The notes beneath the pieces are model-generated. The model was not told the DNA's origin. It ran no database searches and worked only from the letters and a program-made list of their open reading frames with translations. From assembly GCA_026710105.1 (NCBI GenBank), contig JAPORR010000056.1, positions 1-55,659 on the forward strand: a stretch of DNA of 55,659 nucleotides, written 5' to 3'. The stretch is from Alphaproteobacteria bacterium (GTDB lineage Bacteria > Pseudomonadota > Alphaproteobacteria > Bin95). Shown piece after piece: positions 22,770-46,016 of the stretch. The position numbers and the translations under genes are program-made. The number at the start of each line of letters is the position of its first letter. Position 1 is the stretch's first letter.

Positions 22770-24221
22770 ATGGCTTCCATCCGCGACACCCTCCTCGGCG
22801 TCTTTGGCTTCGGTGAGTCGCGCAAGCGCGTGTCTCCGACGCGATGGGCCGGGGCGGCGGGCTTCTCCGTCTACTCCGGCTACCTCGAAGCCGACGAGGT
22901 CGATAAAGACCTCGCCAACCACGAGTCCCGCCACCGGCTCTACCAGTCCATTCTCGCCAACACGTCCATCGTGGCGGCGTCGGTGCGCTACTACTTGAAC
23001 CTCGTCTCGCGGGTGGACTGGAAGTTCGAGCCCGCCGATGACTCGGCCGAAGCCCAGCGCTACGCCGAGCTCATCGAAGAAATGCTGATGGACGACATCC
23101 GGCGTCCCTGGCACAACATCGTGCGGAACATGGCGATGTACAGGTTCTACGGATTCTCGGTCCAGGAGTGGATTGCGGCCCGCACTGACGCGGGCTACCT
23201 CACATTCACGGACTTGCGCCAACGTCCGCAGCACACCATTGAGCGCTGGGACATGGACCTCGACTCCGGGCGTCCGCGCGGCATGGTGCAGCGCGTCCCG
23301 CAGGATTCGAGCTACTTGTACCTGCCGCGCGACAAGGTCGTGTACGTGGTGGACGACGCGCTCACCGATATGCCGAACGGGTGGGGGCTGTTTCGCCACC
23401 TGGCCGAGCCCGCGAATCGCTTGAAGCGCTTCCAGCAGCTCGAGGGCTTCGGCTTCGAGGTGGACTTGCGGAACATTCCCGTGGGCCGGGTGCCGCTTGA
23501 GCAACTTGCCGCGGCGGTGAAGGCCGGGACAATCAACGAGAAGGATGCCGAGGAGCAGATTCGGCCCATCAAAGACTTCGTGCAGAACCACGTGCGGAGT
23601 CCGAAGCTCGGTCTGCTGCTGGATTCGCGGATGCACGAGACGCAGGACGACGCCGCGCGTCCGGTGAGCAACACCCCGCTCTACAGCATGGAGCTGCTGT
23701 CGGGCTCGCAGACGAGCCTTGCGGACTCTGCGCGCGCGATAGAGCGGCTCAATCGTGAGATGGCCCGCATCATGGGGACGGAGCAGCTCCTCCTCGGCAG
23801 CGATAGTGTCGGCTCCTACGCGCTCGCCCAGGACAAGACCGGCCAGTTCTACATCCTGTGCGAGTCGAGTCTGGCCGAGATCCGCCAGTCCGTGCGACTC
23901 GACCTCGTGGAGCGGGCGTTCATCCTGAACGGCTGGCCGCTGGAGATGATGCCGGAGCCCCGCACCGCGGCGGTGCGCCAGTCCACGGTGGAGGAAATTG
24001 CCGAGGCGTTGAAGAGCATGGCGACGGCGGGCCTCGTGCTGATGCCGGGCGACCCGGTGGAGAATCAGGTCCGCGACCTGCTGGGCGTCGAGCACGTGCC
24101 GGACGAGCTCTCGATGATGCGCATGATGGACGCGATGTCGGGTGGCGCCGAGGGCGACCAGGGCGGCGGTACGGGCACGGCGGAGGGGGATGACGACCTG
24201 GAGGGGGTGCAGGACGAATGA
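22770..24221 (+). CDS. Portal protein (DUF935-like)
   Basis: 483 aa. ESRHRLYQSILANTSIVAAS, YYLNLVSRVDWKFEPADDSA, WHNIVRNMAMYRFYGFSVQE and LLLGSDSVGSYALAQDKTGQ are typical of Mu gp29/DUF935-type portals, the dodecameric DNA gate of the capsid. Length suits the family. The C-terminus ends in an acidic, Gly-rich tail. A methyltransferase fusion gene follows with ATGA overlap, and connector proteins and the terminase come after it. Confidence 0.9.
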   Translation: MASIRDTLLGVFGFGESRKRVSPTRWAGAAGFSVYSGYLEADEVDKDLANHESRHRLYQSILANTSIVAASVRYYLNLVSRVDWKFEPADDSAEAQRYAELIEEMLMDDIRRPWHNIVRNMAMYRFYGFSVQEWIAARTDAGYLTFTDLRQRPQHTIERWDMDLDSGRPRGMVQRVPQDSSYLYLPRDKVVYVVDDALTDMPNGWGLFRHLAEPANRLKRFQQLEGFGFEVDLRNIPVGRVPLEQLAAAVKAGTINEKDAEEQIRPIKDFVQNHVRSPKLGLLLDSRMHETQDDAARPVSNTPLYSMELLSGSQTSLADSARAIERLNREMARIMGTEQLLLGSDSVGSYALAQDKTGQFYILCESSLAEIRQSVRLDLVERAFILNGWPLEMMPEPRTAAVRQSTVEEIAEALKSMATAGLVLMPGDPVENQVRDLLGVEHVPDELSMMRMMDAMSGGAEGDQGGGTGTAEGDDDLEGVQDE

Positions 24222-25450
24222 ACGTCGAGCCCCGCGCCATCGACTCACTGACGCCCTACGACCGGAACGCGAAGACGCATCCGGCCGCGCAGGTGGACCT
24301 CATCCGCCGCAGCATCACCGAGTACGGCTGGACCGTTCCGGTGCTGATTGACGCGGACGGTAGCGTGATTGCGGGCCACGGACGCATCGAGGCCGCGAAA
24401 GCGCTCGGGATGGCCGAGGTGCCGACCATCCAGCTTGACCACCTCACGCCCGCGCAGGTGCGTGCGTACCGGCTCGCGGACAACAAGCTCACGGAGCTCG
24501 GCGCATGGGACGACGGGCTGCTATCCGAGGAGCTCAAGCGGCTCCTGGATGACGATTTCGACTTGACCCTGACGGGCTTCGACGATGCCGAGACGGCGCG
24601 CCTGCTGGCGATGGTCAATGGCGACGCCCCGGGCGAGGATGACGTGGCGCCCGACCCGCCCGCCGACCCGGTGACCAAGCCGGGCGACCTCTGGGTGTTG
24701 GGGCGCCACCGGCTGGTGTGCGGGGATGCGACCGATGCAGACGTGGTGGCGCGGGCGCTGGCGGGAGCGACACCGCGGCTGATGGTGACCGACCCGCCGT
24801 ATGGGATTGATTACGACCCATCATGGCGAACATCGGACATTGCGCGAAGACACGTCAGGGAAGGGACAACTGCCGAAAGCATCGTGACGGACCGCGTGAA
24901 AGGGGATACGCGCACCGAATGGATGCGCGCAATTCTTCCTCATGTTTCATCCGTCGCCGTGATCTACATGTGGCACGCCGCGACGATGGCGGCTACGCAT
25001 TACACCGCGCTTGATGCGCTGAAATTTGAGGTTCGATCCGTCATCGTGTGGCGAAAGGATTGCGCCGTGATGTCGCGCGGCCACTACAACAACCAGTACG
25101 AGCCGTGCTTGTACGCTGTCCGTAAGGGGGAGACAGCGAAATGGATGGGCGGCACCAAAGAAAGTACAGTCTGGGACATCCATAATTTGCAAGGATGGGG
25201 ACGCAAGATGGCGGGCGAAGACGCGACCGGCCACCCCACCCAGAAGCCCCTCGAATGCATGGAGCGCCCCATCCGAAATCACAAGGGCGATTGCTACGAG
25301 CCTTTCGCCGGAAGCGGAACGACCCTTATCGCCGCCGAGCGCCAGAACCGCGCCTGCTACGCCATTGAGCTCGACCCCGGCTACTGCGATGTGATTGTCG
25401 AGCGGTGGCAGCAGCACACCGGCGAGACGGCGCGGAGGGAGGCGGCATGA
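24218..25450 (+). CDS. ParB-like nuclease domain fused to DNA methyltransferase
   Basis: 410 aa. Residues 1-115 are a ParB/Srx-like domain (SLTPYDRNAKTHPAAQVD, DADGSVIAGHGRIEAAKALG, RLADNKLTEL). Residues 180-400 are an amino-methyltransferase: catalytic DPPYG at 192-196 comes first and the SAM-binding FAGSGTT at 363-369 last, the order of the beta class (N6-adenine or N4-cytosine). HPTQKPLE precedes the SAM motif. The fusion is common in phages and protects DNA from host restriction or marks it for packaging; its place between portal and connectors fits the latter idea. The stretch 24810-25230 is more AT-rich than the rest, suggesting a swapped target-recognition segment. Confidence 0.9.
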   Translation: MNVEPRAIDSLTPYDRNAKTHPAAQVDLIRRSITEYGWTVPVLIDADGSVIAGHGRIEAAKALGMAEVPTIQLDHLTPAQVRAYRLADNKLTELGAWDDGLLSEELKRLLDDDFDLTLTGFDDAETARLLAMVNGDAPGEDDVAPDPPADPVTKPGDLWVLGRHRLVCGDATDADVVARALAGATPRLMVTDPPYGIDYDPSWRTSDIARRHVREGTTAESIVTDRVKGDTRTEWMRAILPHVSSVAVIYMWHAATMAATHYTALDALKFEVRSVIVWRKDCAVMSRGHYNNQYEPCLYAVRKGETAKWMGGTKESTVWDIHNLQGWGRKMAGEDATGHPTQKPLECMERPIRNHKGDCYEPFAGSGTTLIAAERQNRACYAIELDPGYCDVIVERWQQHTGETARREAA

Positions 25451-26474: not shown

Positions 26475-28922
26475 GTGATGCACGACCTTGCGGAAGTGCA
26501 GCGCCGCCTCGCGGAGCTCTCCCTTTACGATTTCACTCGCATCCTGTGGGCGGAGATGGACCCCGCGCCGTTCCACTCCGGCTGGCACATCCAGGCGATA
26601 TGCGAGCACCTCGAAGCGGTGAGTCGAGGCGAGATTCGGCGGCTGCTCATCAATGTTCCTCCGCGACACATGAAGGCGCTTAGCATTGATACGCCGGTGT
26701 GGACCCTGAACGGATGGGTAGCGCATGGTGATTTGCAGCCAGGAGATTTCGTGTATTCCCCAGAAGGGTCGCTTGTCAGAGTGACAAATGTTACGCACCA
26801 CATGGTATGTGAGGGTGCGATGCGAGTTATCTTTGATACGCGAGAATCGCTTGTGGCAAGCGAAGCGCATGAATGGGACGTAGATCGTGAAAAGTGGGGG
26901 GGCGAGACCAAGAGGTACAGGGTGCCTCGCACGATTGAAACCCATGAGTTGCGCGGCTCTAAGGAAAAGGCAACTTTGAGGCCAGATCGCATTCCTGTGT
27001 CTGCTCCGGTGTATGGAGTCGAGCGTTCACTGCTAATCGACCCTTATGTTCTCGGCGCATGGTATGGCGATGGCTCCAAGCGCTGCGGGCAAATTACAGT
27101 GGGAGCAGAAGACAAGGCCGCGATGGAAGTCAATCTTGGAACGAAAGCATCAGACACTGTTTACAAACAAAGAAGCGGGGAAGGAGAAAGCTACAGAATT
27201 ACGCCGGAGGGTCTTGCCACACGCCTTCGGATTATGGGTATTGCCGACAAGTCAAATGTTCCAGTTGAGTATTTGAGGGCAAGCATTGAGCAGCGCACCG
27301 CATTTCTTCAAGGATTGATGGATACCGACGGCCATGCGACGAAAGACGGCTCATGCGTCTTTACAAACACCAACCCTGTCCTGATTGATGCTGTTTATCA
27401 CTTGATTGTTTCCCTCGGCTTCAAGCCCCATGTCAGATGGAGGCAAATCGAAATTCGAGGCGAGCCATATCGCTACGGGCAGGTCAATTTTCGCGCTCCT
27501 CGCGGGAGCAGCGTATTTCGCCTCAAGAGGAAGCTCGCAAGATTGAAGGTGCCGAAGGTTCCCCGCTCTCGCAATCGTTACGTTGAAAAGGTTGAGTCGG
27601 CTGGGGCGCACATAGTGAACTGCATCGAGGTTGAGGGCGGCAAGTACCTCGCCGGACGCGGGATGATTGCAACACACAACAGCTTGGCTACAGCCGTAGC
27701 GTGGCCTGCTTGGACCTGGGCTCAACCGCCGGGCCGAGGCTTCGTCCACGCCGGTCCCGGCGTCAAGTTCATGTCGCTCTCCTACAGCCAAGCCTTCGCA
27801 GAGCGTGACTCACGCAAGATGCTCCAGTTGGTGCGTTCCGCGCCGTATCAGCGCTGGTGGGGCAAGCGGGTGCGGATTGCGGCTGACCAGCAGGCGCGGA
27901 CCCGCTTCGAGACGACCGCGAAGGGCTTCCGTTTTCCGTCGAGCGTCGGGGGGAAGACGACGGGCGAAGGAGGCGATTTACTCGTCGTTGACGACCCGAT
28001 TTCCGCCACCGACGCCAAGAGCGAGGTCGAGCGGCAGAACGTCATCGACTGGTGGACGGAGACGATGCAGACCCGGTTGAACGACCCGAAGCGCGGGGCC
28101 TTCGTGGTCATCATGCAGCGCCTCCACGAATCCGACCTCGCGGGACACATCCTTGCGCATGAGACCGGCTGGACGCACCTGTGTTTGCCTGCGCGCTACG
28201 AGGTGGACCATCCGACGCCCTGCGCGGCCGATATCCGCACGGTGGACGGTGAGCTCCTCTGGCCGGAGCACGTGGGCGAGGAAGAGCTGTCGGCACTGGA
28301 GGAGGCGTTAGGAAGCTACGCATCAAGTGGCCAGCTCGCTCAACGGCCCGCCCCCCGCGAGGGCGGCATGTTCGAGCGCAAGTGGTTCGACGCGGTCCCC
28401 GCCGCGCCCGCGCAAGGGACGGTCGTGCGGGGCTGGGACTTGGCGAGTTCCACGAGGAAGACGAGCGCCTACACGGTCGGGGTGAAGATGCGCCGCTGCG
28501 GGGGCGAGTATTTCGTGGAGGGCGTGGTCCGCGCCCGCACGACACCGGGCGAGATGCATCGGCTCATCAAGTCGACGGCGGTGAGCGACGGCCCCGGCGT
28601 CGTCATCGACCTCCCGCAAGACCCAGGGCAAGCGGGCGTCGACCAGAAGCGCCTTCTGGTCGCGGAGCTCGCGGGCTTCAACGTCCGCTCGGCCCCGGAG
28701 ACGGGCGCGAAGGAGGTGCGGGCCGAGCCGTTCAGCGCACAAGCCGAGGCCGGGAACGTGAAGCTCGTCAAGGGCGACTGGCACAAGGCGTACTTGGACG
28801 AGCTCGTGCTGTTCCCGAACTCCGACTACGCCGACCAGGTGGACGCCTCCAGCCGCGCTTTCGCCCGCCTCGCCAAGCGCCGGATGTTTACGCCGGGCGC
28901 GGCGGGGCTGGTGGTAGGATAA
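26475..28922 (+). CDS. terL: Terminase large subunit interrupted by an intein
   Basis: 815 aa precursor. N-extein residues 1-67 end in NVPPRHMK; C-extein 403-815 begins SLATAVAWPAW. Splicing would restore the Walker A-like PPRHMKS of phage terminases, leaving 480 aa, a normal length. In the C-extein are Walker B LLVVDDPIS, the coupling region, and nuclease-domain strands VVRGWDLASSTRK and VVIDLPQDPGQAG. The protein packages DNA as an ATP-driven motor and cuts concatemers. Splicing is needed for ATPase function because the insertion splits the P-loop. Confidence 0.95.
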   Translation: MMHDLAEVQRRLAELSLYDFTRILWAEMDPAPFHSGWHIQAICEHLEAVSRGEIRRLLINVPPRHMKALSIDTPVWTLNGWVAHGDLQPGDFVYSPEGSLVRVTNVTHHMVCEGAMRVIFDTRESLVASEAHEWDVDREKWGGETKRYRVPRTIETHELRGSKEKATLRPDRIPVSAPVYGVERSLLIDPYVLGAWYGDGSKRCGQITVGAEDKAAMEVNLGTKASDTVYKQRSGEGESYRITPEGLATRLRIMGIADKSNVPVEYLRASIEQRTAFLQGLMDTDGHATKDGSCVFTNTNPVLIDAVYHLIVSLGFKPHVRWRQIEIRGEPYRYGQVNFRAPRGSSVFRLKRKLARLKVPKVPRSRNRYVEKVESAGAHIVNCIEVEGGKYLAGRGMIATHNSLATAVAWPAWTWAQPPGRGFVHAGPGVKFMSLSYSQAFAERDSRKMLQLVRSAPYQRWWGKRVRIAADQQARTRFETTAKGFRFPSSVGGKTTGEGGDLLVVDDPISATDAKSEVERQNVIDWWTETMQTRLNDPKRGAFVVIMQRLHESDLAGHILAHETGWTHLCLPARYEVDHPTPCAADIRTVDGELLWPEHVGEEELSALEEALGSYASSGQLAQRPAPREGGMFERKWFDAVPAAPAQGTVVRGWDLASSTRKTSAYTVGVKMRRCGGEYFVEGVVRARTTPGEMHRLIKSTAVSDGPGVVIDLPQDPGQAGVDQKRLLVAELAGFNVRSAPETGAKEVRAEPFSAQAEAGNVKLVKGDWHKAYLDELVLFPNSDYADQVDASSRAFARLAKRRMFTPGAAGLVVG
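26676..27680 (+). mobile_element. Ala1 intein with LAGLIDADG homing endonuclease in terL
   Basis: 335 codons starting at Ala68 (ALSIDTPVWTLNGW) instead of the usual Cys or Ser and ending ATHN before Ser+1. Splicing blocks are visible: block A; SEAHEW in block B; the C-terminal GGKYLAGRGMIATHN. Between them two LAGLIDADG-type motifs (LGAWYGDGS and LQGLMDTDG) mark a DOD homing endonuclease. The segment is clearly more AT-rich than the exteins, the mark of a separately moving element. Ala1 inteins splice without the first acyl shift. Confidence 0.9.
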
Positions 28923-30193: not shown

Positions 30194-30664
30194 ATGCCGA
30201 CCACCAGCGCCGCATTCCGTCAAGGCCGCTTCGCCGCCCGAAGCAGTGACACCCTGCGGGCGCTGCTCACCATCGCGCACCCCGACTTGGCGACGGTGCG
30301 GCTGGTGGATGACGTGTTTACGCCGTTGCGCTCGAACGGCCAGAGCTTCGAGAACGGGCGACGGTTCGACGCGACGCTCCCGATTGATGACGACCGCGCC
30401 CCGCGTGGGGAGATTGTCATCGACGACCGCTTTGGCAACCTCGGCCGCTCGCTGATTGCGCTTGACTCCCCACCCACCGCGCGGATTCAGATGGTGTTGG
30501 CGAGCGCCCCGGATACCGTGGAGGTCGATTTCGGGGCGCTGGAGATGCGCGACCTCGTGGCGACGCGGGTGCAGGTGTCGGCGACGCTCGGGCTCCCCGA
30601 CCTCGCGCGTGAGTCGTTCCCCGAGCACAGCTTTACGCCGGAGTTCGCGCCCGGAGTCTTCTAG
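30194..30664 (+). CDS. DUF1833-type tail protein
   Basis: 156 aa. [45 protein letters not shown] and [17 protein letters not shown] match the DUF1833 family found just upstream of the tail-tip gene in lambda-like and related tails. It probably joins the tail-tip complex. The next gene begins with a GTG overlapping this TAG (TAGTG). Confidence 0.8.
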
Positions 30665-33600
30665 TGGGCCTCTCCCGCGAGTTCTTCACGGCCTCCATCG
30701 TCCCGCCACGCGCCGGGGCGGCGTCAGGCGTCGGCAATCAGAGCGTCATCGACAACGCCGACGCGCGCGACCCCTCGTTCTTCATTGGCCGGGTGCGGAA
30801 CCAACCGACACCCTACGGCCCGATTCCGGTGGTGCTCGGCACGCACCGCATGGTGCCCCCGGCCATCTCCCGCCAGGCCGCGGCGCTCGATGGCGCAATC
30901 ACCAACATCGCGCTCACGGTGTGCTGGGGGTACGCCCCACTGACCGTGACTGACCTGCGCCTCGGTGAGATCCCGATTGGCACGTTCGACGATGTGACGG
31001 TCAACACCGAAACGGTGACGCGGGCCGGGGTCGAGGTGGTCATTACCACGCTCACCATCAAGGCCACCGACCAGCTCCTGAACTACATCGACACGCTCTC
31101 GGGGGTGGTCTCAAGCGCGTGCCTCGACTGGGACGACGCGACGGCCACGTGGGTCAACCGGGCGACGAGCAATCCGGCATCGCTCTACCGCTACGCGCTC
31201 CAGGGGCCGTGGCGGGCGCGCCGGACACCGGATGCGGATATCGACCTGTCCGCGCTCCAGGACTTCCACCGCTTCTGCGTCGCCAACGGCTACGAGTACA
31301 ACTTCATCCAGGATGCCCGCTCGACGGTGTGGGACGTGCTGCGCGATGTCTGCGCGGTGGCCCGAGCGACGCCCCGCTGGCGCCGACTCTACACCGTCAT
31401 CGTGGACCGCCCGATTGCCGAGGCCTCGGGGCAAATCACGCCGGTCAACGCGGCGGATATCGAGGTCCGCAAGCGCTACTCCCGCCGCCCCGACGGGCTG
31501 ATGGTCACCTTCGCCAACCGCGCCCAGGGCTGGCGGCGCGACCAACGCACCATCTACGCCGACGGGCGCGACGCCTCCAACGCGCGCGAAGTCGGAGAGC
31601 TGCACCTGAAAGGCGTCACTGACGCGGCGCACGCCTGGAAGTACGCCCGCTACCGCCTCGCGCAAGTGGGTGACGAGACGTGGGTGTGCCGGGTCGGAGA
31701 CGAGCACTTGGAGACGCCGCGCGGCTCGCTGGTCCACGTGCAACACGAGCTCCTGACCGTGGGCTCGGTCAGTGCGCGCGTTCAGGACGTCGAGACGGAC
31801 GGCTCGGACCGCATCACCGCGCTCATCCTCGACCAGCCGGTGGTCCTCGCGCTCTCCGTCGACTACGCGGCCCAGCTCCGCACCGTGGCCGATACCGACG
31901 TGCTGGTGAACCTGAACGTCACGGGCTCCGAGGATGAAATCACCCGGCTCCCGCTCGCCGCACCGCTCGCGGGCACGCCCATTGAGGCCGGGGCGCTCAT
32001 CAGCGTTGGCCAGCGAACGCAGGTCACCCGCCAGGGCATCGTCCGTACCGTGGTCCCCGACCCGGCGTTCGGCGCCCAGATGGAACTCGTGCCCTACGAC
32101 GCCGACGTGTACGCAGCGGAAGCCGGGCCGGTCCCCGCGTTCACCTCGCAGCTTTCGGATGCGCCGACCCGCCTTGCGATGGCGATCCGCCGGGTGGAGT
32201 CGGGCGAGGACACGCTCCGGCTGATTGGCAACGTCTACGAGCCCGCGATTCGGCTGGTCGTCACTCCGGCTGCCGACCCGCGCGCGACCATCGAGGCCGA
32301 GATTCGGGAGTCGGGACAGTCCGCGTGGGAGCCCGCGAGCTTCCGGCGTCGCGCCCGTGACGGGGCCGAGCTTGCCGATATCGACCTGCATCGCACCTAC
32401 GACGTGCGCGCGCGATGGGTGCTCCAGTCGAGCGTCGCGGATGAGACCGCGCCCGTGCCGCGCTCGGGCGTCTCGGCCATGCCGGGGCCGTGGAGTCAGG
32501 TGCTGAACCACGCGGTGCAGGCCAACGTCCCGCCACCCGCGCCGACCGACTTCGCCATCGACGCGAAGCTCGGCGAGATGCGCGAGCTCTCGTGGACGCC
32601 GCCGAGCGTCCCGGACTACGCCGGGGTCCGCATCCGGTACTCGACCGACCTCGACGCCGAGTGGAACGACATGCGGTCCCTCGATTCCGGCGTCATCACC
32701 GCGTCCCCGTACCTCACCGTCCGGCCCGAGGCCGCAGGCACCTACGTCTTCGAGGCGCGGGCGGAGGACACGTCACGGCTCCTGTCGGCCGCGGGCGCCG
32801 CGCGCGTGCAGGTCACGCTCCGGGCCGCGGTCGAGAGCCTCTCCGTCGCCACCGAGGTCCGGTTGCACCAGGTCATCGGCATCTCCGAGGCGTTCCCGTC
32901 CCCGCCCGCGGCCGCGCGCTGGAACCACGGTCGGCGCGAGATGGAGAATATCGGGTCGTGGCAGCAGGACTTCCCCGCCTACAACGCTGCGACCCAGCGC
33001 GTCGCTTGCACGCTCACCACCGCGTTCCAGGACAACACTATCTCCGGGTGGTCGACGGTGCGTGTGTGCGAGCGCGCGGGCGATATCAACGCCGTCTACC
33101 GGCGCGTCACGCCCGGCACGTCCCCGGCCCGACCGACTGCGGGCAACGCGCTTATCCCGGCCGGGTGGATTGACAACCCCGACGACCTGACGGGCGAAGG
33201 CCAAGCGTGGGTGAGCGTCGGGCACCGCCCGCCGGGCGGGACGCGCTGGAACTGGTCGTCCCCCATCCGTATCCCCGCCCTCGACGGACGCCTTGCGGTG
33301 GACGGCACGGCGGGCCGTACGGGGCTTTCCGGGTCGAGCGGGCGCATCACCCGCTCCACCCGCGTCGCCACGCAGGGCGCCGCTGACGCCGCGACCGAGT
33401 GGCACATGAGCGGCACGGCCGACTCGTGGAATGTCGCGCAGCGCGTGGCGACGCTCGGGGGAATCTCGCCTGCCGACCGTCTGCTGATTGAGCGCATCGG
33501 CGCGGGCGGGCTCATCACCCTGTTCCACGACCCCGACAACTGGGGTGATTACACGCTGCGTTCGGTGGCCTTCGCTGCGGGTCAGGCGCGACTCACGCTC

Positions 33601-34932
33601 GACTACCTGGAGCACGTCGGCGGACCGCCTCCGGTCGGTGACGGCGGCGGCACCACGCTCCACGTCCACTTCACGCCGGGCGGTGTGCCGGGGTCGCGCG
33701 AGCTCATCATCTACCGGGTGCTGGCGCTCGCGGACGCTCTGCCGAGCGCTCCGGCGTCGGCAACGTGGGACCACTCGACGGACACCCTCGGCGGGATTGC
33801 CGGGTGGTCACGCACGTTCCCCGCGTACAACCCCGAGACGCAGAAGGTCGCCTGCACGCTGGCGACCGGCTTCGGCAACGACACCCTGTCCGGGTGGTCG
33901 ACGGTGCGCACGTGCGAGTCGAGCGGTGACCTGAACGCGGTCTACCGCCGCGAGCCGTCGGGCACTACGCCCGCGCGTCCGGCGACGGGTGAGGACGCGG
34001 TGCCGACGGGCTGGACGGACATCGGCTCCGCGCTCACGGGCGCGGGGCTCGCGTGGGTGACGGTCGGGCATCGGCCCTACGGCTCGGCCACGTGGACGTG
34101 GTCGACACCATCGCGCATCGCGGCGCTCGATGGCATCGACGGCACCGACGGCACCGACGGCGAGGGCGTGGAGTACATCTTCTGCTCCTCGCCCGACGGC
34201 GTGCGCATTACTGGCGCGGGGAACCTGCCGCTCGCGTCGATGAACTACGACATCGACCAGCTGCGGACTTCGGGTGGCGTCCAGCGCGGGGCCTTCCGGT
34301 ACTACGACGGCACGCCGCCTGACCTTTCGACGACCCGTCCCTACTCCATTCGCTTCCGCCGGGGCGTCGCTGGGCAGCCCGCGCAGAACGACGACATCGG
34401 CGACGTGCCCTGGATTCAAGAAGCGTCGGTGAAGAACGTCGGCGACGACGGCGTGGCCGGCGTCGATGGCCAGCCCGGACAACCGGGTACGCCAGGTGTT
34501 GACGGGCCTCCGGGATTGCGGGGCCTCACCGGCCCTCCGGGGTCCATCGGAGGCATCGGCCCCCCTGGAGGCACGGGGCCTCCGGGATTGCGGGGCCTCA
34601 CCGGCCCTCCGGGGTCCATCGGAGGCATCGGCCCCCCTGGAGGCACGGGGCCTCCGGGAACACTAGGGCCTCCGGGAAGTCCGGGGGGGCCGGGAGCAAG
34701 AGGCGGGCCGGGGCCTCCGGGCGGCGACGGGCCGCCAGGGCCTCCGGGGCCGGGGTTGAGCGGCAGATTCGTTCAGAATGTGCGGGTTACTGCTGACACC
34801 ACAAGGACAGGCAGCGGACAGAATTGCTCGCGGCCGATGGTCAATCGTTTATCTTGGAGCGTTTCAAATCAAGGCTCAAACGGGCTTTCGGGAACCTTGA
34901 CCGTTCATGGAACCGAAACGTGCGTGCGATAG
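30664..34932 (+). CDS. Tail tip / central fibre protein (J-like) with collagen-like C-terminus
   Basis: 1422 aa, GTG start. The N-terminal 400 residues ([58 protein letters not shown]) are of the tail-tip attachment J/TipJ family. Two FN3-like segments follow at about 620-730. Then comes a duplicated module of about 135 residues (about 730-890 and 1015-1165; [20 protein letters not shown] and [20 protein letters not shown]). From about residue 1265 to 1365 there are Gly-X-Y triplets ([20 protein letters not shown]), i.e. a collagen triple-helix stalk, capped by a short Ser/Cys-containing tip. It would be the receptor-facing central fibre. Confidence 0.9.
34504..34647 (+). repeat. Perfect 72-bp tandem duplication in the collagen-like segment
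   Basis: 34504-34575 and 34576-34647 are identical, encoding 24 residues or eight Gly-X-Y triplets each. Identity at the DNA level implies a very recent duplication or gene conversion. Unequal recombination here would change stalk length. Confidence 0.9.
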
Positions 34933-34941
34933 GAGGAAGAC

Positions 34942-36519
34942 ATGGCGATATTTGATCTGACGGAGCGAGTCATTGGCTATGGCTTGAGAAACGCTCACGT
35001 CAAAGGGCTGATTGTGCTTCCTTCGGGCTTACATGAAATGTTGATGAGCAGTGACTTCATCAGCTTTGCCCCTAGATATCAAAGCGGAAATTTTTCATGG
35101 GAATACGATGGCCCTTTCGATGCTAGATGGTGGGCGGACTTTGTGAGGTGGAATCCATATGAACGGCCTGGGATTGCGCTCGGAGTTGGCACCGAATACA
35201 CCGAAGACGGGAAGCTGGTTCCATCCGTGATTCAGGTTTACGCCGCCGATCCTAACGCATCTCCGAAACCTGATTGGTCCACTGTGGAAAATTGGGCGCG
35301 CGCCGAAAATCTTGATTTGCATGGAAATGATGGATACGAATCAACCGCGATCAAAAAATCAAGAGATCGTGCGCTTGCTTCTCACATTCACAACGGGAAA
35401 ACGTTACATACAGGCGAAGGCCTTGTGCATATGCCTGCGCTAATTCAGCTCGGGGCAAACACGCAAGCCGGATCTCGAATGCCGCGCGTGGTCATGCGCG
35501 AAGAAGAATCGCACGACGCAGTAGACTTCTGGACACATAGCGCCATCGCGCCCTACATCGGCAGGATTGCCGAGCGCACGAACGAAGTTGAATCGGCACG
35601 AAACATCGTGCGGAAACGCGCCGAAGGTTTGCGGGCATTGATCCTCGACCCGAACGGCGGGCTCGCGGCGACGGCGACGGACGATGAAAAGCTGGACGCG
35701 CGTGAAGAAGCGTGGATGCAGCGTGAATCGCTGCTTGCCGAGAACAACCTCGACGCCGCTATCGCCGCCGAAGTCGAAAAGCTCCGCAACACCCTCCCCA
35801 CCGACCTCCCCACCCTCAAAGCCGTCCTCACCGAGCGCCTGGAGTCCGCCGCGACCGGCCACCAGAAGACGCTCAAGGGCGCGCTGTCGCAGCAGGCCAT
35901 CGACAACTGGGCGGCGTGCGTAGACATGGACGTGGCGCTCCAGGAGGTGTCGAAGCAGTGCGTCCTCGGAAGTATCGAGATTGACCGGGTCGAGGAAGCC
36001 ACCGCTACGTTCCGCAAGCTCTCCGGCGCATGGCAGGCGATGACGCCACCGGACGGGACGACGTTCGACCACGAGGGCGACGACCCACCCGCGACTGACC
36101 TCGGCGAGAACAACGAGTGGTATCGCCAGCGCGTCGGGAACGCCACCGCCAAGACGGCGTTCGATACGGCGGTCGCGGCCATCCAGAACGTGCGGGCCGC
36201 GAACACGCCGCACTGGACCATTGAGGGCGTGGACTACGACGAGTCGCACCCGCTTACCCCCATCGCCGTCACCGGGCGCTCGGTGACCATCATCGCGCGC
36301 CACCCGACGGGGGCGACGGTCGAGGGCAATGTCCGCCTCGGGGTGCTGGGCGCGCCGCTGTCGAGGACGACGATTGCGCTCACCGACCCGACCTCGGCGG
36401 GTGGGCGGTACAACGTGCCGTCACTGGCCGATGGTGAGTCGGTGACGTTGGAGGCGCAAAGCGGTTCGATATGCGGGCCGAGCCGGGTGTTGATAGCGTT
36501 GACTGCGCCGAGCCCGTGA
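34942..36519 (+). CDS. Accessory tail-fibre-like protein, mosaic
   Basis: 525 aa, preceded by GGAGGAAGAC. Residues 1-235 (KGLIVLPSGLHEMLMSSDFI, then GLVHMPALIQLGANTQAG) are encoded by distinctly AT-richer DNA than residues 236-525. The second part is helical (REEAWMQRESLLAENNLDAA, LPTLKAVLTERLESA) and ends with an Ig-like strand region (VTIIARHPTGATVEGNVRLG, LSRTTIALTDPTSAGG). The AT-rich half continues the AT-rich tip of the upstream gene. No family is recognised. Position after the tip gene suggests a fibre or a fibre chaperone. Its stop lies in palindromic motif copy 2. Confidence 0.65.
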   Translation: MAIFDLTERVIGYGLRNAHVKGLIVLPSGLHEMLMSSDFISFAPRYQSGNFSWEYDGPFDARWWADFVRWNPYERPGIALGVGTEYTEDGKLVPSVIQVYAADPNASPKPDWSTVENWARAENLDLHGNDGYESTAIKKSRDRALASHIHNGKTLHTGEGLVHMPALIQLGANTQAGSRMPRVVMREEESHDAVDFWTHSAIAPYIGRIAERTNEVESARNIVRKRAEGLRALILDPNGGLAATATDDEKLDAREEAWMQRESLLAENNLDAAIAAEVEKLRNTLPTDLPTLKAVLTERLESAATGHQKTLKGALSQQAIDNWAACVDMDVALQEVSKQCVLGSIEIDRVEEATATFRKLSGAWQAMTPPDGTTFDHEGDDPPATDLGENNEWYRQRVGNATAKTAFDTAVAAIQNVRAANTPHWTIEGVDYDESHPLTPIAVTGRSVTIIARHPTGATVEGNVRLGVLGAPLSRTTIALTDPTSAGGRYNVPSLADGESVTLEAQSGSICGPSRVLIALTAPSP

Positions 36520-36533
36520 CGTAACGTCACCCC
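36516..36533 (+). promoter_or_regulatory. Palindrome-bearing motif GTGACGTAACGTCACCCC, copy 2
   Basis: 15-bp palindrome GTGACGTAACGTCAC with CCC to its right. The TGA stop of the preceding gene (36517-36519) is inside it, and the next ATG is at 36536. The placement across a stop and just before a start resembles stoperator-like sites of some phages. Confidence 0.8.
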
Positions 36534-36535
36534 CG

Positions 36536-36706
36536 ATGCAGCGCCCCGAATCCAGCACCGTCGCCAAGGGCAACGCGAGCCCCAGGTACCTCCGGCTCCG
36601 GCGGGAGGTGCGGCGCAGGCACTGGATTGCGAGGCAGTCGATTCCGTGGATTGCGAAGTCCACCGGGCTCTCGACGAAGGTGGTGCGGGAAATGCTGCGA
36701 GACTGA
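36536..36706 (+). CDS. Small helix-turn-helix-like basic protein, 56 aa
   Basis: Begins MQRPESSTVAKGNASPRYLR. The second half (RHWIARQSIPWIAKSTGLST, then KVVREMLRD) reads as helix-turn-recognition helix with many arginines at the front. The start lies three bases after motif copy 2, without a Shine-Dalgarno sequence. Another small HTH gene (46031-46228) ends in copy 3, so HTH proteins and this motif keep company; direct binding is a guess. Confidence 0.65.
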   Translation: MQRPESSTVAKGNASPRYLRLRREVRRRHWIARQSIPWIAKSTGLSTKVVREMLRD

Positions 36707-36722
36707 CACGAGGAGGAAGGCG

Positions 36723-37073
36723 ATGTTGAAACAGACCATTACGGACAATCCGCTGGATCTACTCAAGATGATATGGGTAGACGGCCAGGACCAGTCTCAA
36801 GAGTACGATGGCTGGCCGCTGGAACTGCACGTGGTCAAGCACTGTCTTGAGGTGAATGGCGTCAACATGGACGACCTAGCGGCGCTCTGTGACGACTCGG
36901 AGGACGCCCGCGAGGCGCTGGCGCTGGGCAAGCCGAAGATGCCAAGCATCGCCGGCCCCGAAGGCCCGCCGGGACGGTCCGGCCCCAACGGCGAGCCCGG
37001 TGGCCGTGGCCTGCCCGGCCCGCGACCCGGCATCATGGGGCCGCAGGGGCTGGCCCACGAGGCGGCGTCGTGA
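36723..37073 (+). CDS. Small protein with short collagen-like segment
   Basis: 116 aa with a strong site (GAGGAGGAAGGCG). Residues 1-75 are helical and acidic (NPLDLLKMIWVDGQDQSQEY, LAALCDDSEDAREAL). Residues 79-112 are collagen-like (GPEGPPGRSGPNGEPGGRGL, PGPRPGIMGPQG). A short trimerising stalk on a small fibre is likely. Its GTG-coupled neighbour and a hydroxylase-like gene follow directly. Confidence 0.75.
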   Translation: MLKQTITDNPLDLLKMIWVDGQDQSQEYDGWPLELHVVKHCLEVNGVNMDDLAALCDDSEDAREALALGKPKMPSIAGPEGPPGRSGPNGEPGGRGLPGPRPGIMGPQGLAHEAAS

Positions 37074-37348
37074 TTACCCACGTCCTGTTCTGCACCACGT
37101 CGGGGCGCGAGCCTCCGCCGCTGCCGGGCATCGGCCTGACCGACAAGGCATGGCACCACCACCCGCCTCGCACGAGCACGCGCGGGCTCGCGTGGATGGC
37201 GATGTACGACGATGGCCGCTGGCAGGGGCCGTTCCTCATGCCGCTCTCGATGCGCACCGAGGGGCCGAACGGGGACTTTCGGCCGCCGTTCGAGTTCATC
37301 ACCCGCGGGAAGGAAGGCCGCGACCGCGTGCCGTCGTTCTCGGCCTGA
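37070..37348 (+). CDS. Hypothetical protein between collagen-like gene and oxygenase
   Basis: 92 aa; GTG start overlapping the previous TGA (GTGA). Compact, aromatic and Pro-rich (KAWHHHPPRTSTRGLAWMAM, YDDGRWQGPFLMPLSM). No family recognised. The coupling places it in one translation unit with the collagen-like protein and, one base later, the oxygenase. Confidence 0.7.
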   Translation: MITHVLFCTTSGREPPPLPGIGLTDKAWHHHPPRTSTRGLAWMAMYDDGRWQGPFLMPLSMRTEGPNGDFRPPFEFITRGKEGRDRVPSFSA

Positions 37349-37349
37349 C

Positions 37350-37898
37350 ATGACCGACACCCGCTGGCGCGAGTTCCCTGCGCTTCTCGACGCGGGTGAG
37401 CGCCGCCTGGTGATGGAGGCCGCCGCCGCGATGCCGGAGGTGGCCGCGGCGACCGGTGAGGACAACAACCACCGCGACCCCCGCATCCGGCAGTCCATCA
37501 TTCGCTGGCTTCCGCGCGACGACCCGACGTTCGACTGGCTGTTCGCGCGCATGGACGCGACGGTGGAGGCTGCCAACGCCGCCGAGTGGCAGTTCGACTA
37601 CATGCGCGAGGGCAACCCGAACTTCCAGTACAGCGAGTACCGCGACGCCGGGAGCCACTACGCCGGGCACCAGGACACGTTCTGGGACGGCGCAGATCTA
37701 CAACGCAAGCTCTCGTTCACGCTGCTCCTGGTGCCTGCGCTCGCGGGTGGCCAGCTCTACATCGAGCGCACCCCGCTCGCGCTGACCCCCGGCGACGCCG
37801 TGGTGTTTCCCTCGACGCTCTGGCACACGGTGGCGCCGGTGACGGTCGGGGCACGCATCAGCGTGGTCGGGTGGTATGACGGGCCGAGGTGGCGCTAG
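37350..37898 (+). CDS. 2OG-Fe(II) oxygenase, prolyl-4-hydroxylase/PiuC-like
   Basis: 182 aa from MTDTRWREFPALLDAGERRL. The iron triad is visible: H107 and D109 in GHQD, and H159 in LWHTV. R169 (GARISVVGW) fits the 2-oxoglutarate salt bridge. Flanking strands NFQYSEYRDAGSHYAGHQDT and LSFTLLLVPALAGGQLYIER are those of the P4H/PiuC double-stranded beta-helix. It uses 2-oxoglutarate, O2 and Fe(II) to hydroxylate a substrate. Two collagen-like proteins are encoded nearby, so proline in Gly-Pro-Pro is a candidate substrate; lipid, sugar or nucleobase targets remain possible. Confidence 0.85.
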   Translation: MTDTRWREFPALLDAGERRLVMEAAAAMPEVAAATGEDNNHRDPRIRQSIIRWLPRDDPTFDWLFARMDATVEAANAAEWQFDYMREGNPNFQYSEYRDAGSHYAGHQDTFWDGADLQRKLSFTLLLVPALAGGQLYIERTPLALTPGDAVVFPSTLWHTVAPVTVGARISVVGWYDGPRWR

Positions 37899-39165: not shown

Positions 39166-39573
39166 ATGGCCTCCGCCCGCGACCGTCGCCAAATCGCCGC
39201 CGCCGTTGATGGGCTGGAGCGGTTCACCGAGCGTGCGGTGATTCGCCTGACCCTCGACGTTCACGCCGGGCTCGTCCGCCGGACGCCCGTGGATACCGGA
39301 TGGGCGCGAGCGAACTGGATTCCGCGCGTCGGTCGACCGCAGGCGGCGCCGGTGGGCACGCCGCAGGACATCGGGCCGGCGACGCAGGCGACCTCGGCCG
39401 GGCGCTCGGGCGTGCTGGCGTATCGGCTCCCGCGCGGGTCGGTGTTTGTTTCTAACGCGGTCGATTACATTCAAGCGCTCAACGACGGCCACAGCCAGCA
39501 GGAGAGTCCGGGCTTCGTCCAGCGGGCCATCCAGTCCGCCGTCAACAACATCAACATCACGCCTGGAGCCTGA
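39166..39573 (+). CDS. Tail completion / neck protein (HK97 gp10-like)
   Basis: 135 aa. DVHAGLVRRTPVDTGWARAN followed later by YIQALNDGHSQQESPGFVQR and AIQSAVNN is the signature of the gp10/neck family (helix, TPVDTGxAR, then GHS...PxGFV). Such proteins cap the head-proximal tail end. The tail terminator gene follows at once. Confidence 0.8.
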   Translation: MASARDRRQIAAAVDGLERFTERAVIRLTLDVHAGLVRRTPVDTGWARANWIPRVGRPQAAPVGTPQDIGPATQATSAGRSGVLAYRLPRGSVFVSNAVDYIQALNDGHSQQESPGFVQRAIQSAVNNINITPGA

Positions 39574-39575
39574 CC

Positions 39576-40250
39576 GTGGCGGTGGACATCTCGGCGGTGC
39601 GGGACGTGGTGTACATCCGATTCATGGATAGGTTTGAGGGCGAGTACAACGCTCGGATTCGGCCGCCGCAAACCCCACTCCCCGCTCGCTTCATGCGGTC
39701 GTTCAAGGAAGGGGGGCGGCTCTCCCTGTCCGGCGAGATTGGCCCCCAGCCGAACGACATGGATTTCTGGGTGCGACTCGTGCTGCGTCACAACGGGCGG
39801 CGACAGACATCAATGGGGCGGGCGCCAAAGCGCCGATTCCGCACCGATGGCAGTATCATCTTTGCCGTTTTCGTCCCGCTCCAGTCTAACAACCAAGCGC
39901 CGATTCTCGACGTGGACACCGCGATGGGTGCGGCGTGTGCGGTGTTCGACTCGATGCGGCTAGAGTCGGAGGCGGTGTTCTGGGATGCGCGGCCGGGGCT
40001 GATTGCGCGGACGGGCCGCGAGGCACTGAAAGTGCCGTGGACGCAAGAGCGGTGCCGGATGGCCGAAGAAGCGGATGATTTCGACGCCGCCGACCCGAGC
40101 ACCTGGTCCGACGAATACAAGTGCTGGTGCATTCCCCCCGACGCCCCACTTATCACCACCTACGGCGCCGTGCCCCGCGAGGAAGCGCCGGAGGGGCAGT
40201 GGCTCCCGGCCGTCGTCGAGGTGCCATTCTCCTACGACGAGATGGCCTGA
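39576..40250 (+). CDS. Probable tail terminator protein
   Basis: 224 aa, GTG start two bases after the neck gene. Residues 1-135 show the alpha/beta pattern of tail terminators (IRFMDRFEGEYN, then DFWVRLVLRHNGRRQTSMGR, GSIIFAVFVPLQSNNQ, DTAMGAACAVFDSMR). A C-terminal extension (EEADDFDAADPSTWSDEYKC) is unusual. Order neck-terminator-tube supports it. Confidence 0.65.
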   Translation: MAVDISAVRDVVYIRFMDRFEGEYNARIRPPQTPLPARFMRSFKEGGRLSLSGEIGPQPNDMDFWVRLVLRHNGRRQTSMGRAPKRRFRTDGSIIFAVFVPLQSNNQAPILDVDTAMGAACAVFDSMRLESEAVFWDARPGLIARTGREALKVPWTQERCRMAEEADDFDAADPSTWSDEYKCWCIPPDAPLITTYGAVPREEAPEGQWLPAVVEVPFSYDEMA

Positions 40251-41803: not shown

Positions 41804-43462
41804 ATGAGCGCCGTCGATGCCAATACCATTCAACTCGCAGTCGCGCGACAGACCGCCCTCGGTGTGCGTGCTTCCGCCGGGGTCCGACAGCTCGAACCGA
41901 ACTCTGACCCGGCCCCCACCTTCGCGCCGGACATCACCAAGATTGCCCGGACGCCGATTTCCCGACGCCTGTCTCGACGCAAGGGCACGCCGACCGCACT
42001 GGCGGCCAACGTCTCGTTCGGTGAGGACATCACCTACTCGTCGCTCCCGTATTGGCTGGAGGCCGCGCTGTACTCGACTTGGCGCAATGGTCAAGAGCGG
42101 CTGATGGACCCGGACAGCGTCGCGGCGGGCTTCACGTTTCCCAACAACTCGTTCAACGCGGGCGCTATGGCGCGCCTAACCGCGAAGCTGCCTCCCAATC
42201 GGGGATTGCTCTGGGCGGAGGGCTTTACCAGCGCACGGAACAACGGCCTCAAGCTGCGCGCAGGGGCTGTCACTGCAAACACGATTCCCGCCACCGACGC
42301 GGATGCGGCTTCGACCGCGCTCGTAGCAGAGCCCGCGCCCGCTGATGCGCGGATATCGCTTGCCGGATTTCGTCTGGCGGGGGCTGGGCAGCAGACCTGG
42401 GCATGGGACGAAGACTCCCGCCTTGCGACCCTGACCGGCGCTGCGAATGCCGTCTCGAATGGCATGGGACTTGGCGAGGGGCTGGTGAACGACGGGCAAG
42501 CGGCTAATCGGAACAAGCCACTGTCGGTCGGTCAGACCGTGCACATCGGCTCCATTCTCGCTGACGGTGGCGCGCTCGGGCGGGGACTGCGCATCGAAGG
42601 CAATGGCGGGAGCGCCGGCGTGACCGGCTTCGCTCGGCTGGTCCGATTCGAGGAAAATTCGCTTATCTTCGACCGCGTGGATACGGCGCTGCAAATGAAC
42701 TTTGCGCTTCCGAGCACGCCCGCCAACGTCATCGACATCCTGTTCGGCGACTTCCTCACCGACGAGGCAATCGACGACGACTACTACGCGCGCCACCTGC
42801 ATACCCTGGAGCTCGTCTCGCCCGACCTCGAAGGCGAGGACGCGGCGACGGCCGACGATGGCTACGAGTACGCGGAGGACCAAGTGGTAGCCACGCTCGG
42901 GCTCAATTTCCCGCTCGAAGACAAGGCCACCATGACGGTGAACCTCGTCGGCACGGACATCAGCCCGCCTTCCACCGTGCGGAGTGCGGGCTTCGACAGC
43001 CAAGCCGAGCCGCTGCACACCGAGGCCTACAACACGGCCTCGGACTTCGCCCGGCTTCGGCTGACCGACGAGAATGACGAGCTGCTGACCGAGGACTTCA
43101 CGGCGGTCACCATCAACGTCAACCCGCAGTCCGGCACCGAATCCGTGCTTGGCCAGCTCGGCCCCCGATTCCTCAACCGCGGCATCCTCCAGTGCGACAT
43201 CGACGCCACCGTGATATTCGCGGACGACGGGATTCCGAGGGCGATTCGGGACAACGAAACCACGCGATTTGATTTGATTTCGAGGAACAACGACGGGGTG
43301 TTTGTCCTGGATCTGCCAAGCCAAACGCTCGGAGGCGGCGGCAGAGAATATCCGACAAATCAAAAAGTTACGCTCTCAACGACAGGTGAATCCTTCGAGG
43401 ATGAGACGTTCGGACGAAGCCTGATGTGCTCATTGATTCCTGCCCCAATCCCGATCACGTAG
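41804..43462 (+). CDS. Major tail tube protein
   Basis: 552 aa. AVARQTALGVRASAGVRQLE at the N-terminus, the strand pattern SFGEDITYSSLPYWLEAALY, repeated TVHIGSILADGG-type segments and LNFPLEDKATMTVNLVGTDI fit the Phage_tube_2 type of tail tube protein, which stacks as hexamers along the tape measure. The insertion at about 100-330 makes it longer than usual and may form surface domains. It follows neck and terminator, as expected. Confidence 0.75.
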   Translation: MSAVDANTIQLAVARQTALGVRASAGVRQLEPNSDPAPTFAPDITKIARTPISRRLSRRKGTPTALAANVSFGEDITYSSLPYWLEAALYSTWRNGQERLMDPDSVAAGFTFPNNSFNAGAMARLTAKLPPNRGLLWAEGFTSARNNGLKLRAGAVTANTIPATDADAASTALVAEPAPADARISLAGFRLAGAGQQTWAWDEDSRLATLTGAANAVSNGMGLGEGLVNDGQAANRNKPLSVGQTVHIGSILADGGALGRGLRIEGNGGSAGVTGFARLVRFEENSLIFDRVDTALQMNFALPSTPANVIDILFGDFLTDEAIDDDYYARHLHTLELVSPDLEGEDAATADDGYEYAEDQVVATLGLNFPLEDKATMTVNLVGTDISPPSTVRSAGFDSQAEPLHTEAYNTASDFARLRLTDENDELLTEDFTAVTINVNPQSGTESVLGQLGPRFLNRGILQCDIDATVIFADDGIPRAIRDNETTRFDLISRNNDGVFVLDLPSQTLGGGGREYPTNQKVTLSTTGESFEDETFGRSLMCSLIPAPIPIT

Positions 43463-44680: not shown

Positions 44681-44712
44681 GCCTCGGTTGGGGCGGCAAC
44701 CTCAACCGAGGC
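44681..44712. promoter_or_regulatory. 10-bp perfect inverted repeat in the leader of the HNH gene
   Basis: GCCTCGGTTG (44681-44690) and CAACCGAGGC (44703-44712), 12-base loop. It lies between promoter-like TATAGT boxes on the minus strand (about 44725-44716) and the HNH ribosome site, so the transcript would fold here. It may attenuate or stabilise the message, or be an operator. Confidence 0.6.
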
Positions 44713-44733
44713 ACGTACTATACTATAACGCAT
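44713..44733. promoter_or_regulatory. Divergent -10-like cluster
   Basis: The AT-rich run TACTATACTATAACG (44716-44730) in GC-rich surroundings gives TATAGT boxes leftward (HNH gene) and TATACT rightward (head genes from 44752). No good -35 is apparent for either. Confidence 0.4.
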
Positions 44734-44751
44734 TCGTGGATGCAAGCCTGA

Positions 44752-44982
44752 ATGCCCACCCCGCACCCCCGCTGGCTGCCACGCGCACCGTGCCCACCGC
44801 CTCCGCCGTCCACCTACCGGATGACGATAGGCCAACTTCGCCACGTACTCTGGCTTCACGGCGTGCGCGTGACGGAGGAGGCGCCGATACGGCAACTGGT
44901 CGATGTGTGGAACGCCACCTGGCGCACGGCTGTCGCCCCGCCCCACGCGCACCCCTGGGGCCATCGCCCGCGCCAAAGCTGA
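44752..44982 (+). CDS. Small hypothetical protein upstream of the minor head gene
   Basis: 76 aa. A Pro-rich N-terminus is followed by MTIGQLRHVLWLHGVRVTEE and APIRQLVDVWNATWRTAV, a helical segment. Its TGA overlaps the ATG of the minor head gene (TGATG), which is the main support. Initiation could also be at the internal ATG of MTIGQLRH (44821). Confidence 0.6.
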   Translation: MPTPHPRWLPRAPCPPPPPSTYRMTIGQLRHVLWLHGVRVTEEAPIRQLVDVWNATWRTAVAPPHAHPWGHRPRQS

Positions 44983-46016
44983 TGCCTACCCGCCGCTTCA
45001 CCACCCGCGCCATCATGGAGTCGCGCTACGACCGCGCCGAGCGCCTCCTGCTCGCGGCAGCGGTGCGCTCGGTGCTGGCCGCCCGTGCCGCGCTCCCCGG
45101 CGAGCGGGCACTGGCCGAGGCGTTTGCCACGGGCAACATCGAGCCGGCGGTGGAGGCGAGCGCGCAGGCTGCGGCACGGGTGATTGCGCAGGCGTCGTTC
45201 GATGTGTACCTGGACTCCGGGCGCCGCACGGCACGGCTGCTGGAGGAGGCGCTGAATAAGCCAGTCCGCAAGCAAGAGGACGCCGACCCGGACGCGCTGC
45301 CGGTGGCGCCCGCCGGGGCCGCAGCCGTCGTCATCGACTTCGACGCGGTCAACGACTTCGCCATCGCCCGCCACGCCGCGAATCGCCTGGAGCGCGTGCG
45401 CGAGTGGACGGACGACCAGCGCACCATCGCGCAGCGCACCATCGCCGAGGGCATCGAGGAGGGCACCAACCCCCGGGCGCAAGCACGCCGATTCCGCGCC
45501 TCGACCGGCCTCACCGCTCGCCAGCACGCCGCCGTGGCCAACTACCGCCGTCTCCTCATGCGCGCGCACGAGGGCGACCTGGAGAGCATGACGCGCGCGC
45601 TCCGTGACCGCCGGTTCGATGCGTCGGTGCGGCGCTCGGCCCGCACCGGCCAGCCACTCACTCGCGCCCAGATTGCCCGGATGGTGGAGCGCTACCAAGA
45701 CCGCTACATCAAGTACCGGGCGGAGGTGGTGGCGCGCACCGAAGCGCTCGGAGCCGTCAACGCCGGGAGCTACGATGCGCAACGGCTCGCGGTGCAGGAG
45801 GGCGTGGTCGAGCGAGACGCCATCACGCGCGAATGGGTGGCGGCACGTGATGACCGCGTGCGCGACACACACGTTGAGGTGAACGGTCAGCGGGTCGGCG
45901 TCGATGAGCCGTTCATCGTCGGCGGGGCGCAGATGATGTTCCCCGGCGACCCGAGCGGCCCGGCGCGCGAGGTCGTGTCTTGCAGATGTACGCTCGTCAG
46001 CTCGATTCGCCTATAG
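44982..46016 (+). CDS. Minor head protein (Mu gpF/SPP1 gp7-like)
   Basis: 344 aa from MPTRRFTTRAIMESRYDRAE. A helical N-terminus (RLLLAAAVRSVLAARAALPG) and the MuF-type C-terminal domain (YRAEVVARTEALGAVNAGSY, then REWVAARDDRVRDTHVEVNG, and DPSGPAREVVSCRCTL) are diagnostic: the RDxH and final CRC motifs are the family mark. The protein enters the procapsid with the portal. Here it is 20 kb away from the portal gene but adjacent to protease, scaffold and capsid. Confidence 0.9.
   Translation: MPTRRFTTRAIMESRYDRAERLLLAAAVRSVLAARAALPGERALAEAFATGNIEPAVEASAQAAARVIAQASFDVYLDSGRRTARLLEEALNKPVRKQEDADPDALPVAPAGAAAVVIDFDAVNDFAIARHAANRLERVREWTDDQRTIAQRTIAEGIEEGTNPRAQARRFRASTGLTARQHAAVANYRRLLMRAHEGDLESMTRALRDRRFDASVRRSARTGQPLTRAQIARMVERYQDRYIKYRAEVVARTEALGAVNAGSYDAQRLAVQEGVVERDAITREWVAARDDRVRDTHVEVNGQRVGVDEPFIVGGAQMMFPGDPSGPAREVVSCRCTLVSSIRL

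Follow-up and report, generated by a model that had tools for sequence, protein, structure and literature searches.

The stretch of DNA analysed here (hereafter the window) is the complete 55,659-nt contig JAPORR010000056.1 (C1) of an alphaproteobacterial metagenome-assembled genome (MAG; GCA_026710105.1), and it carries a tailed-phage gene set as judged by Pfam and PHROGs. Inside its tail module, in a compact run after a gene for a short collagen-like stalk, lies a gene for a 2-oxoglutarate (2OG)-Fe(II) oxygenase, and J, the central tail-tip protein, bears a long tract of Gly-X-Y triplets. The pairing of this oxygenase with collagen-like genes recurs, within one clade of its relatives, in unrelated phages and in one bacterial operon, and the fold predicted for it is closest to that of protein prolyl hydroxylases. 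On sequence and structural model, the enzyme is most likely a fibre-modifying prolyl hydroxylase. We lean towards the fuller reading that it is a phage protein hydroxylase dedicated to the collagen-like chains of the tail fibre, which would hydroxylate their prolines and stabilise the stalk. It is probable that some phages alter their own fibres chemically, in a manner comparable to the modification of collagen in animals. A preliminary description of this DNA had suggested that a phage hydroxylates its own collagen fibre; the link within the clade and the fold support that suggestion, whereas hydroxyproline on J we infer.

The C-terminal part of J (1422 aa), which matches the 'central tail fiber J' profile phrog_31 and, above the cut-off, Pfam Collagen at aa 1263-1317, consists of a collagen-like stalk followed by a C-terminal head of ~58 aa. 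About 100 residues of Gly-X-Y with many Gly-Pro-Pro (GPP) triplets had been described in the tail tip, and this is what we found: the tract runs through 35 triplets without interruption, as expected of a collagen-like tail fibre, GPP makes up 11 of them, proline occupies 17 of the 35 Y positions, and lysine is absent. The longest Gly-X-Y run in 2000 shuffles of J was six triplets, versus 35 observed. The tract contains a perfect 72-bp tandem duplication, which shows that it has recently grown; position 34504, where the preliminary description had the collagen region begin, is the start of this duplication and not of the tract, which starts at 34441. Upstream of the tract, J also holds two 173-nt copies that are 71% identical (32971-33143 and 33817-33989) and represent a duplicated domain. 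The second such stalk that had been claimed for a 116-aa protein is present, but it is weaker than stated, with eight uninterrupted triplets (versus at most five in 2000 shuffles), an interrupted GPRPGIMGPQG after them, and a Pfam Collagen score of 18.5 bits that stays below the cut-off of 27.2. Proline occupies a fraction of 0.49 of the Y positions in the window, whereas 26 collagen-like tracts from Alphaproteobacteria average 0.08; among the 13 high-GC tracts of these 26, the mean is 0.10 and the maximum 0.29. The absence of lysine from the Gly-X-Y tracts of the window, together with this richness in Y-position proline, suggests that proline would be the likeliest target. Lysyl hydroxylation of the fibre was rejected on the same absence of lysine, and the oxygenase profile gives no match to the lysyl hydroxylases LH3 (PLOD family) or mimivirus L230 at 0.01.

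The oxygenase is full length and belongs to the 2OG-Fe(II) superfamily (PF13640, 51.4 bits versus a cut-off of 27) and to phrog_61. The HxD...H motif and arginine that had been read as intact are so, as H107, D109, H159 and R169 show no variation among 44 relatives. An AlphaFold2 model (pLDDT 91.6, pTM 0.89) was compared with solved structures by Foldseek, and the best matches were protein prolyl hydroxylases, with template modelling (TM) scores of 0.68-0.79 and a probability of 1.00: Pseudomonas putida prolyl 4-hydroxylase (P4H) at 0.79, PHD2 at up to 0.77, vCPH of the virus PBCV-1 at 0.72, and human collagen P4H-II (C-P4H-II) at 0.68. PiuC, the other reference named in the preliminary description for such a comparison, is more distant (0.63), and the overall fold, as modelled, is close to that of solved protein prolyl hydroxylases (P4H/PHD type). 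Sequence profiles, against this ranking, place PiuC slightly above the P4Hs (PiuC core matches of 5e-11 to 5e-14, while its TM score is only 0.63). The C-terminal extension of PKHD/PiuC proteins is lacking: in solved PiuC chains of 225-241 aa, the core match stops at about 175-190, and the oxygenase, at 182 aa, ends seven residues after W175. The profile ranking could also be seen as favouring an auxiliary enzyme that lowers 2-oxoglutarate, takes up iron in the manner of PiuC or repairs DNA, the usual proposals for 2OG oxygenases of cyanophages; phrog_61 is filed under auxiliary metabolic genes, and roles in nitrogen/2OG signalling (PMC3037559) and in DNA repair near uvsW/uvsY (PMC9146016) have been proposed for phage 2OG oxygenases. 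Such a function is nevertheless quite improbable here, since the gene lies in a tail module, the cyanophage homologues of those proposals fall outside the clade of the window oxygenase, and the fold is nearer to protein prolyl hydroxylases than to PiuC.

Relatives of the oxygenase were collected from IMG/VR by a profile scan, which gave 382 viral relatives, and 80 of these loci were analysed; single-protein scans of viral contigs with the oxygenase or J alone found no relatives. A PiuC-like 2OG family from the same collection served as control, replacing a cyanophage oxygenase control that comprised 16 near-identical loci. A collagen tract was counted from at least eight Gly-X-Y triplets, and redundancy was handled by clusters of 80% identity. 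Collagen tracts were found within 3 kb of the oxygenase homologue at 22 of 80 loci, versus none of 80 control loci (p = 9e-8; by clusters, 7/35 versus 0/46, p = 0.002). On the maximum likelihood tree, 20 of the 22 collagen-linked rows, the window included, fall into one clade with moderate support (ultrafast bootstrap/SH-aLRT 83/91 and 89/84; SH-aLRT 85 in a second tree), which unites the window phage, Kanaloavirus cyanophages, a group of marine tailed viruses and a bacterial operon with a collagen-like protein. When the count is limited to viral loci that extend at least 2.5 kb upstream, a Gly-X-Y gene lies within 5 kb upstream on the same strand at 18 of 21 in-clade loci, at none of 34 out-of-clade homologues (by loci, p = 9e-12; by clusters, 6/9 versus 0/21, p = 1.4e-4), and at one of 66 loci of the control family; most in-clade loci lacking collagen are contigs that end just upstream. 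Conversely, of 17 marine viral contigs retrieved by the stalk-anchor gene alone, 13 carry the oxygenase downstream. Had the oxygenase been equally frequent in phages without collagen-like proteins, this would have spoken against the link, but the counts show otherwise; the association is real, but it belongs to one clade and not to the whole family. A link across all of phrog_61 was rejected on the 0/34 outside the clade; members of this PHROG are common in phages without neighbouring collagen. The neighbourhood might be attributed to chance, as insertions concentrate at fibre genes, tail fibres commonly contain collagen-like tracts (several PHROGs), and some relatives lack such a tract; the figures for the control family and for homologues outside the clade, and the recurrence of the pairing in a bacterial operon that is no phage tail, make a pairing without functional meaning very improbable.

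In the Kanaloavirus cyanophages S-8S55, S-8S56 and S-CAM9, the gene order is a fibre with 55-59 lysine-rich triplets (55 in S-8S55), a ~125-aa protein, a 2OG oxygenase, the oxygenase homologue and, directly after it, a ~620-aa protein (621 aa in S-8S55). The last matches human procollagen galactosyltransferase 1 (COLGALT1) at aa 3-182 (4e-20), the LH3 glucosyltransferase domain at aa 217-415 (2.7e-34; Pfam GT_PLOD, 4.5e-48) and the lysyl hydroxylase (LH) domain of L230 at aa 448-610 (2e-9). Lysine occupies 37-44% of the Y positions of these fibres, in agreement with the LH, galactosyltransferase and glucosyltransferase domains, so that enzyme and substrate match in the cyanophages. The ~620-aa polypeptide brings together in one chain the domains used by animals for the hydroxylysine-Gal-Glc pathway. 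In the marine group, a giant collagen fibre (up to 63 triplets) is followed by one or two small variable proteins, the oxygenase and connector genes; the small genes vary by locus, and fibre and oxygenase are constant. The remaining four of the 17 stalk-anchor contigs retain the collagen stalk, and their oxygenase slot is occupied by a sulfotransferase-like gene (PF03567, 1.2e-6). A GT2 glycosyltransferase (GT) gene stands between stalk and oxygenase at two loci (L219 and L220), and at two others (L075 and L076) a weakly matching methyltransferase domain, a GT2 domain and the oxygenase form one 685-aa protein behind a 61-triplet fibre.

The nearest cellular homologue of the oxygenase (34-38% identity) comes from a MAG that belongs to the genus of the host (L119, with coordinates agreeing with those of G006:C521; MPNF01000227.1 1-4573), and a second MAG has the same operon (L120, JAPOQB010000744.1). 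This operon encodes a collagen-stalk protein, an LH3-like lysyl hydroxylase (6e-14), a protein that is COLGALT1-like (9e-20) and LH3-GT-like (2.7e-44), a P3H1-like 2OG oxygenase (2e-5) and the homologue itself. The GT parts of the cyanophage and bacterial proteins are mutually homologous (6e-61), as are the LH parts (3e-30). A simple match of enzyme and substrate is not seen here, the sequenced collagen part being devoid of lysine, although the contig end truncates the collagen gene. Inspection by eye suggested an autotransporter-like C-terminal anchor on L119, which Pfam did not confirm. The presence of LH3- and COLGALT1-like enzymes in this operon is relevant to how collagen modification in animals originated. 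The pairing recurs across unrelated contexts together with other collagen-type enzymes, which makes the finding stronger than first stated.

These neighbourhoods bear on three further readings. The first is that tailed phages possess an exchangeable fibre-modification slot, in which collagen-like fibre genes are followed by dedicated decorating enzymes (prolyl and lysyl hydroxylases, GT2, collagen-type galactosyl- and glucosyltransferases, methyltransferases and sulfotransferases), with the Kanaloavirus carrying the animal hydroxylysine-Gal-Glc domain set and the window, with its single oxygenase, the simplest form; we hold this to be evenly balanced between right and wrong. The second is that hydroxylation serves not stability but the attachment of further groups, the hydroxyls being handles for glycosylation, methylation or sulfation that would mask the fibre or tune receptor binding, on X-position proline or another residue. 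Glycosyltransferase, methyltransferase and sulfotransferase genes that adjoin, are fused to or replace the oxygenase, as seen among the marine relatives, in cyanophages and in the bacterial operon, are consistent with it, as is the fact that X-position proline is common to nearly all linked collagens, with Y varying; a search of the window, however, found no recognisable glycosyltransferase or sulfotransferase partner, and its tract is rich in proline at Y, the classical stabilising site, so that we regard this reading as unlikely for the window. According to the third, the oxygenase promotes infection by modifying a host protein (EF-Tu, for example, or one of the ribosome), as the P. putida prolyl hydroxylase does with EF-Tu, and occupies an ordinary moron insertion site behind fibre genes. 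The best fold match was solved in complex with EF-Tu, and bacterial homologues stand mostly alone, with no collagen at 13 bacterial loci within stretches of ~20 kb or shorter; such a role would not predict the clade-specific collagen link across unrelated contexts, the association with collagen-type glycosyltransferases or the swap for a sulfotransferase, and it appears improbable.

Several observations weigh against a dedicated fibre prolyl hydroxylase. The C5 carboxylate of 2OG is bound by lysine in C-P4H, vCPH and Bacillus anthracis P4H (BaP4H); the putative 2OG-binding residue of the window oxygenase is Arg169, ten positions past the distal histidine in 44 of 44 homologues, which argues against the classical label of collagen prolyl 4-hydroxylase (C-P4H, EC 1.14.11.2). 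The enzyme with the closest solved fold, that of P. putida, acts on EF-Tu and not on collagen. Three in-clade loci (L089, L077 and L115) and a chromosomal one (G224) have no nearby collagen, and the branch of the window is long (1.3 changes per column), its placement not being starred in the tree. One alphaproteobacterial tract (G136) reaches a Y-position proline fraction of 0.48 with no 2OG oxygenase seen nearby, and high GC content favours proline codons; richness in Y-position proline was therefore rejected as proof of hydroxylation on its own. In most marine relatives, Y is threonine (50-66%) with few prolines, so that a strict Y-position prolyl 4-hydroxylase misfits some members, and the target there would be X-position proline or another residue. 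The oxygenase family may act on X-position proline as well.

If the oxygenase is a fibre prolyl hydroxylase, it would act in the infected cell on the unfolded Gly-X-Y tracts of J, perhaps also on the 116-aa stalk, and would hydroxylate prolines, most likely including the abundant ones at Y. The J chains would trimerise, and the tract would fold into a triple-helical stalk of ~30 nm (105 residues x 0.286 nm), which hydroxyproline would stabilise and which would carry the C-terminal, receptor-facing head. The substrate, proline as target residue, trimerisation and the effect on stability we infer.

Enzymes annotated for collagen-like proline, such as PBCV-1 vCPH (5c5t) and B. anthracis P4H (3itq, 5hv0), are likewise 2OG-Fe(II) double-stranded beta-helix proteins, and the oxygenase matches their profiles (2.8e-9 and 6.9e-7, respectively); the latter hydroxylates (PPG)n at both X and Y positions (PMC8968730). 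The window enzyme differs from both in its arginine for 2OG and in being encoded in a tailed-phage tail module, and a structural alignment gives only ~15-18% identity with vCPH. The prolyl hydroxylase of P. putida (4iw3; 25% identity) is a host gene product with no collagen neighbour implied. Mimivirus L230, a lysyl hydroxylase/glucosyltransferase (PDB 6ax6), is a precedent for the modification of a collagen-like protein by the very virus that encodes it (PMC9614988). LH and GT domains homologous to those of L230 and human LH3/COLGALT1 adjoin relatives of the oxygenase; the window itself has neither domain, and its oxygenase is of a different 2OG branch. The cyanophage oxygenases of phrog_61 share with it the C-terminal signature GW..GP.(W/F)(R/K), but most of those sampled fall outside the collagen-linked clade and lie far from fibres, and the roles proposed for them are metabolic. 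EPclP of E. coli O157 is a prophage collagen-like tail fibre with a similar Gly-X-Y stalk; phage collagens have been stated to lack prolyl hydroxylases and a preference for proline at Y (PMC3368898), whereas the window has a candidate enzyme and the proline-rich Y positions described above. Some phage proteins do bear automatically assigned names of the type 'procollagen-lysine 5-dioxygenase'. A search of the open-access literature brought up no paper that connects oxygenases of tailed phages with collagen-like fibres; subscription literature was outside the scope of the search, and priority cannot be claimed. If the reading is true, post-translational modification of collagen extends beyond animals and giant viruses to tailed phages, and phage oxygenases now filed as metabolic genes gain a structural role. 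It also offers a testable explanation for the richness of some phage collagen tracts in Y-position proline, for which mass spectrometry of virions of the cultured phages S-8S55, S-8S56 and S-CAM9 could be decisive, and a possible source of small soluble enzymes for hydroxylated recombinant collagen.

Table 1. Features of the window and of related loci (positions in related loci follow the locus name).
Feature	Position	Strand	Remarks
Tape measure	9377-14752		
Portal	22770-24221		
Terminase	26475-28922		
J, central tail-tip protein	30664-34932	+	phrog_31 2.5e-36, PF01391 2.2e-6
Collagen tract of J, aa 1260-1364	34441..34755	+	35 uninterrupted Gly-X-Y triplets
Perfect 72-bp tandem duplication in the tract	34504..34647	+	
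525-aa protein between the two collagen-like genes	34942..36519	+	no family assigned
116-aa protein with short C-terminal collagen-like stalk	36723..37073	+	PF01391 0.0017, below cut-off
Gly-X-Y stalk of the 116-aa protein, 8 triplets without interruption	36954..37025	+	
92-aa open reading frame between stalk gene and oxygenase	37070..37348	+	read from sequence
2OG-Fe(II) oxygenase, 182 aa, proposed fibre prolyl hydroxylase	37350..37898	+	PF13640 2.2e-13, phrog_61 1.3e-18
HxD iron-binding motif (H107, D109)	37668..37676	+	invariant in 44 homologues
Distal iron ligand H159 and putative 2OG-binding R169	37824..37856	+	invariant in 44 homologues
Neck	39166-39573		
Tail terminator	39576-40250		
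Tube	41804-43462		
Head morphogenesis	44688-46016		
Scaffold	47889-48305		
Major capsid	48321-49421		
S-8S55 621-aa multi-domain protein	L037:8432-10294		homologues in L032, L038
Methyltransferase-GT2-oxygenase fusion	L075:8432-10486		
Homologous methyltransferase-GT2 gene adjoining oxygenase	L051:671-2299		
Sulfotransferase-like gene in oxygenase slot	L224:10709-11248, L225:10616-11155		also L226, L228

Neither the 525-aa protein nor the product of the 92-aa open reading frame has a match in Pfam or PHROGs. The stalk gene overlaps this reading frame by 4 nt, and the latter ends 1 nt before the oxygenase gene, a packing that suggests translational coupling of the three. Elsewhere in the window, the 815-aa terminase large subunit has an apparent intein, as its terminase matches are split by an insert of ~340 aa ending in HN. 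Adjoining the portal gene, a ParB-like domain is fused to a DNA methyltransferase (24218-25450; phrog_498, 1.4e-133). A tandem array with an 18-bp period lies at 961-1095, and six copies of a ~55-nt repeat (21537-22257) lie within a 2071-aa virion-structural open reading frame. A 1409-aa tail-collar-type protein (49953-54182) shows CBM5/12 carbohydrate-binding matches in three stretches (6.6e-10), which suggests binding of the virion to chitin or another polysaccharide.

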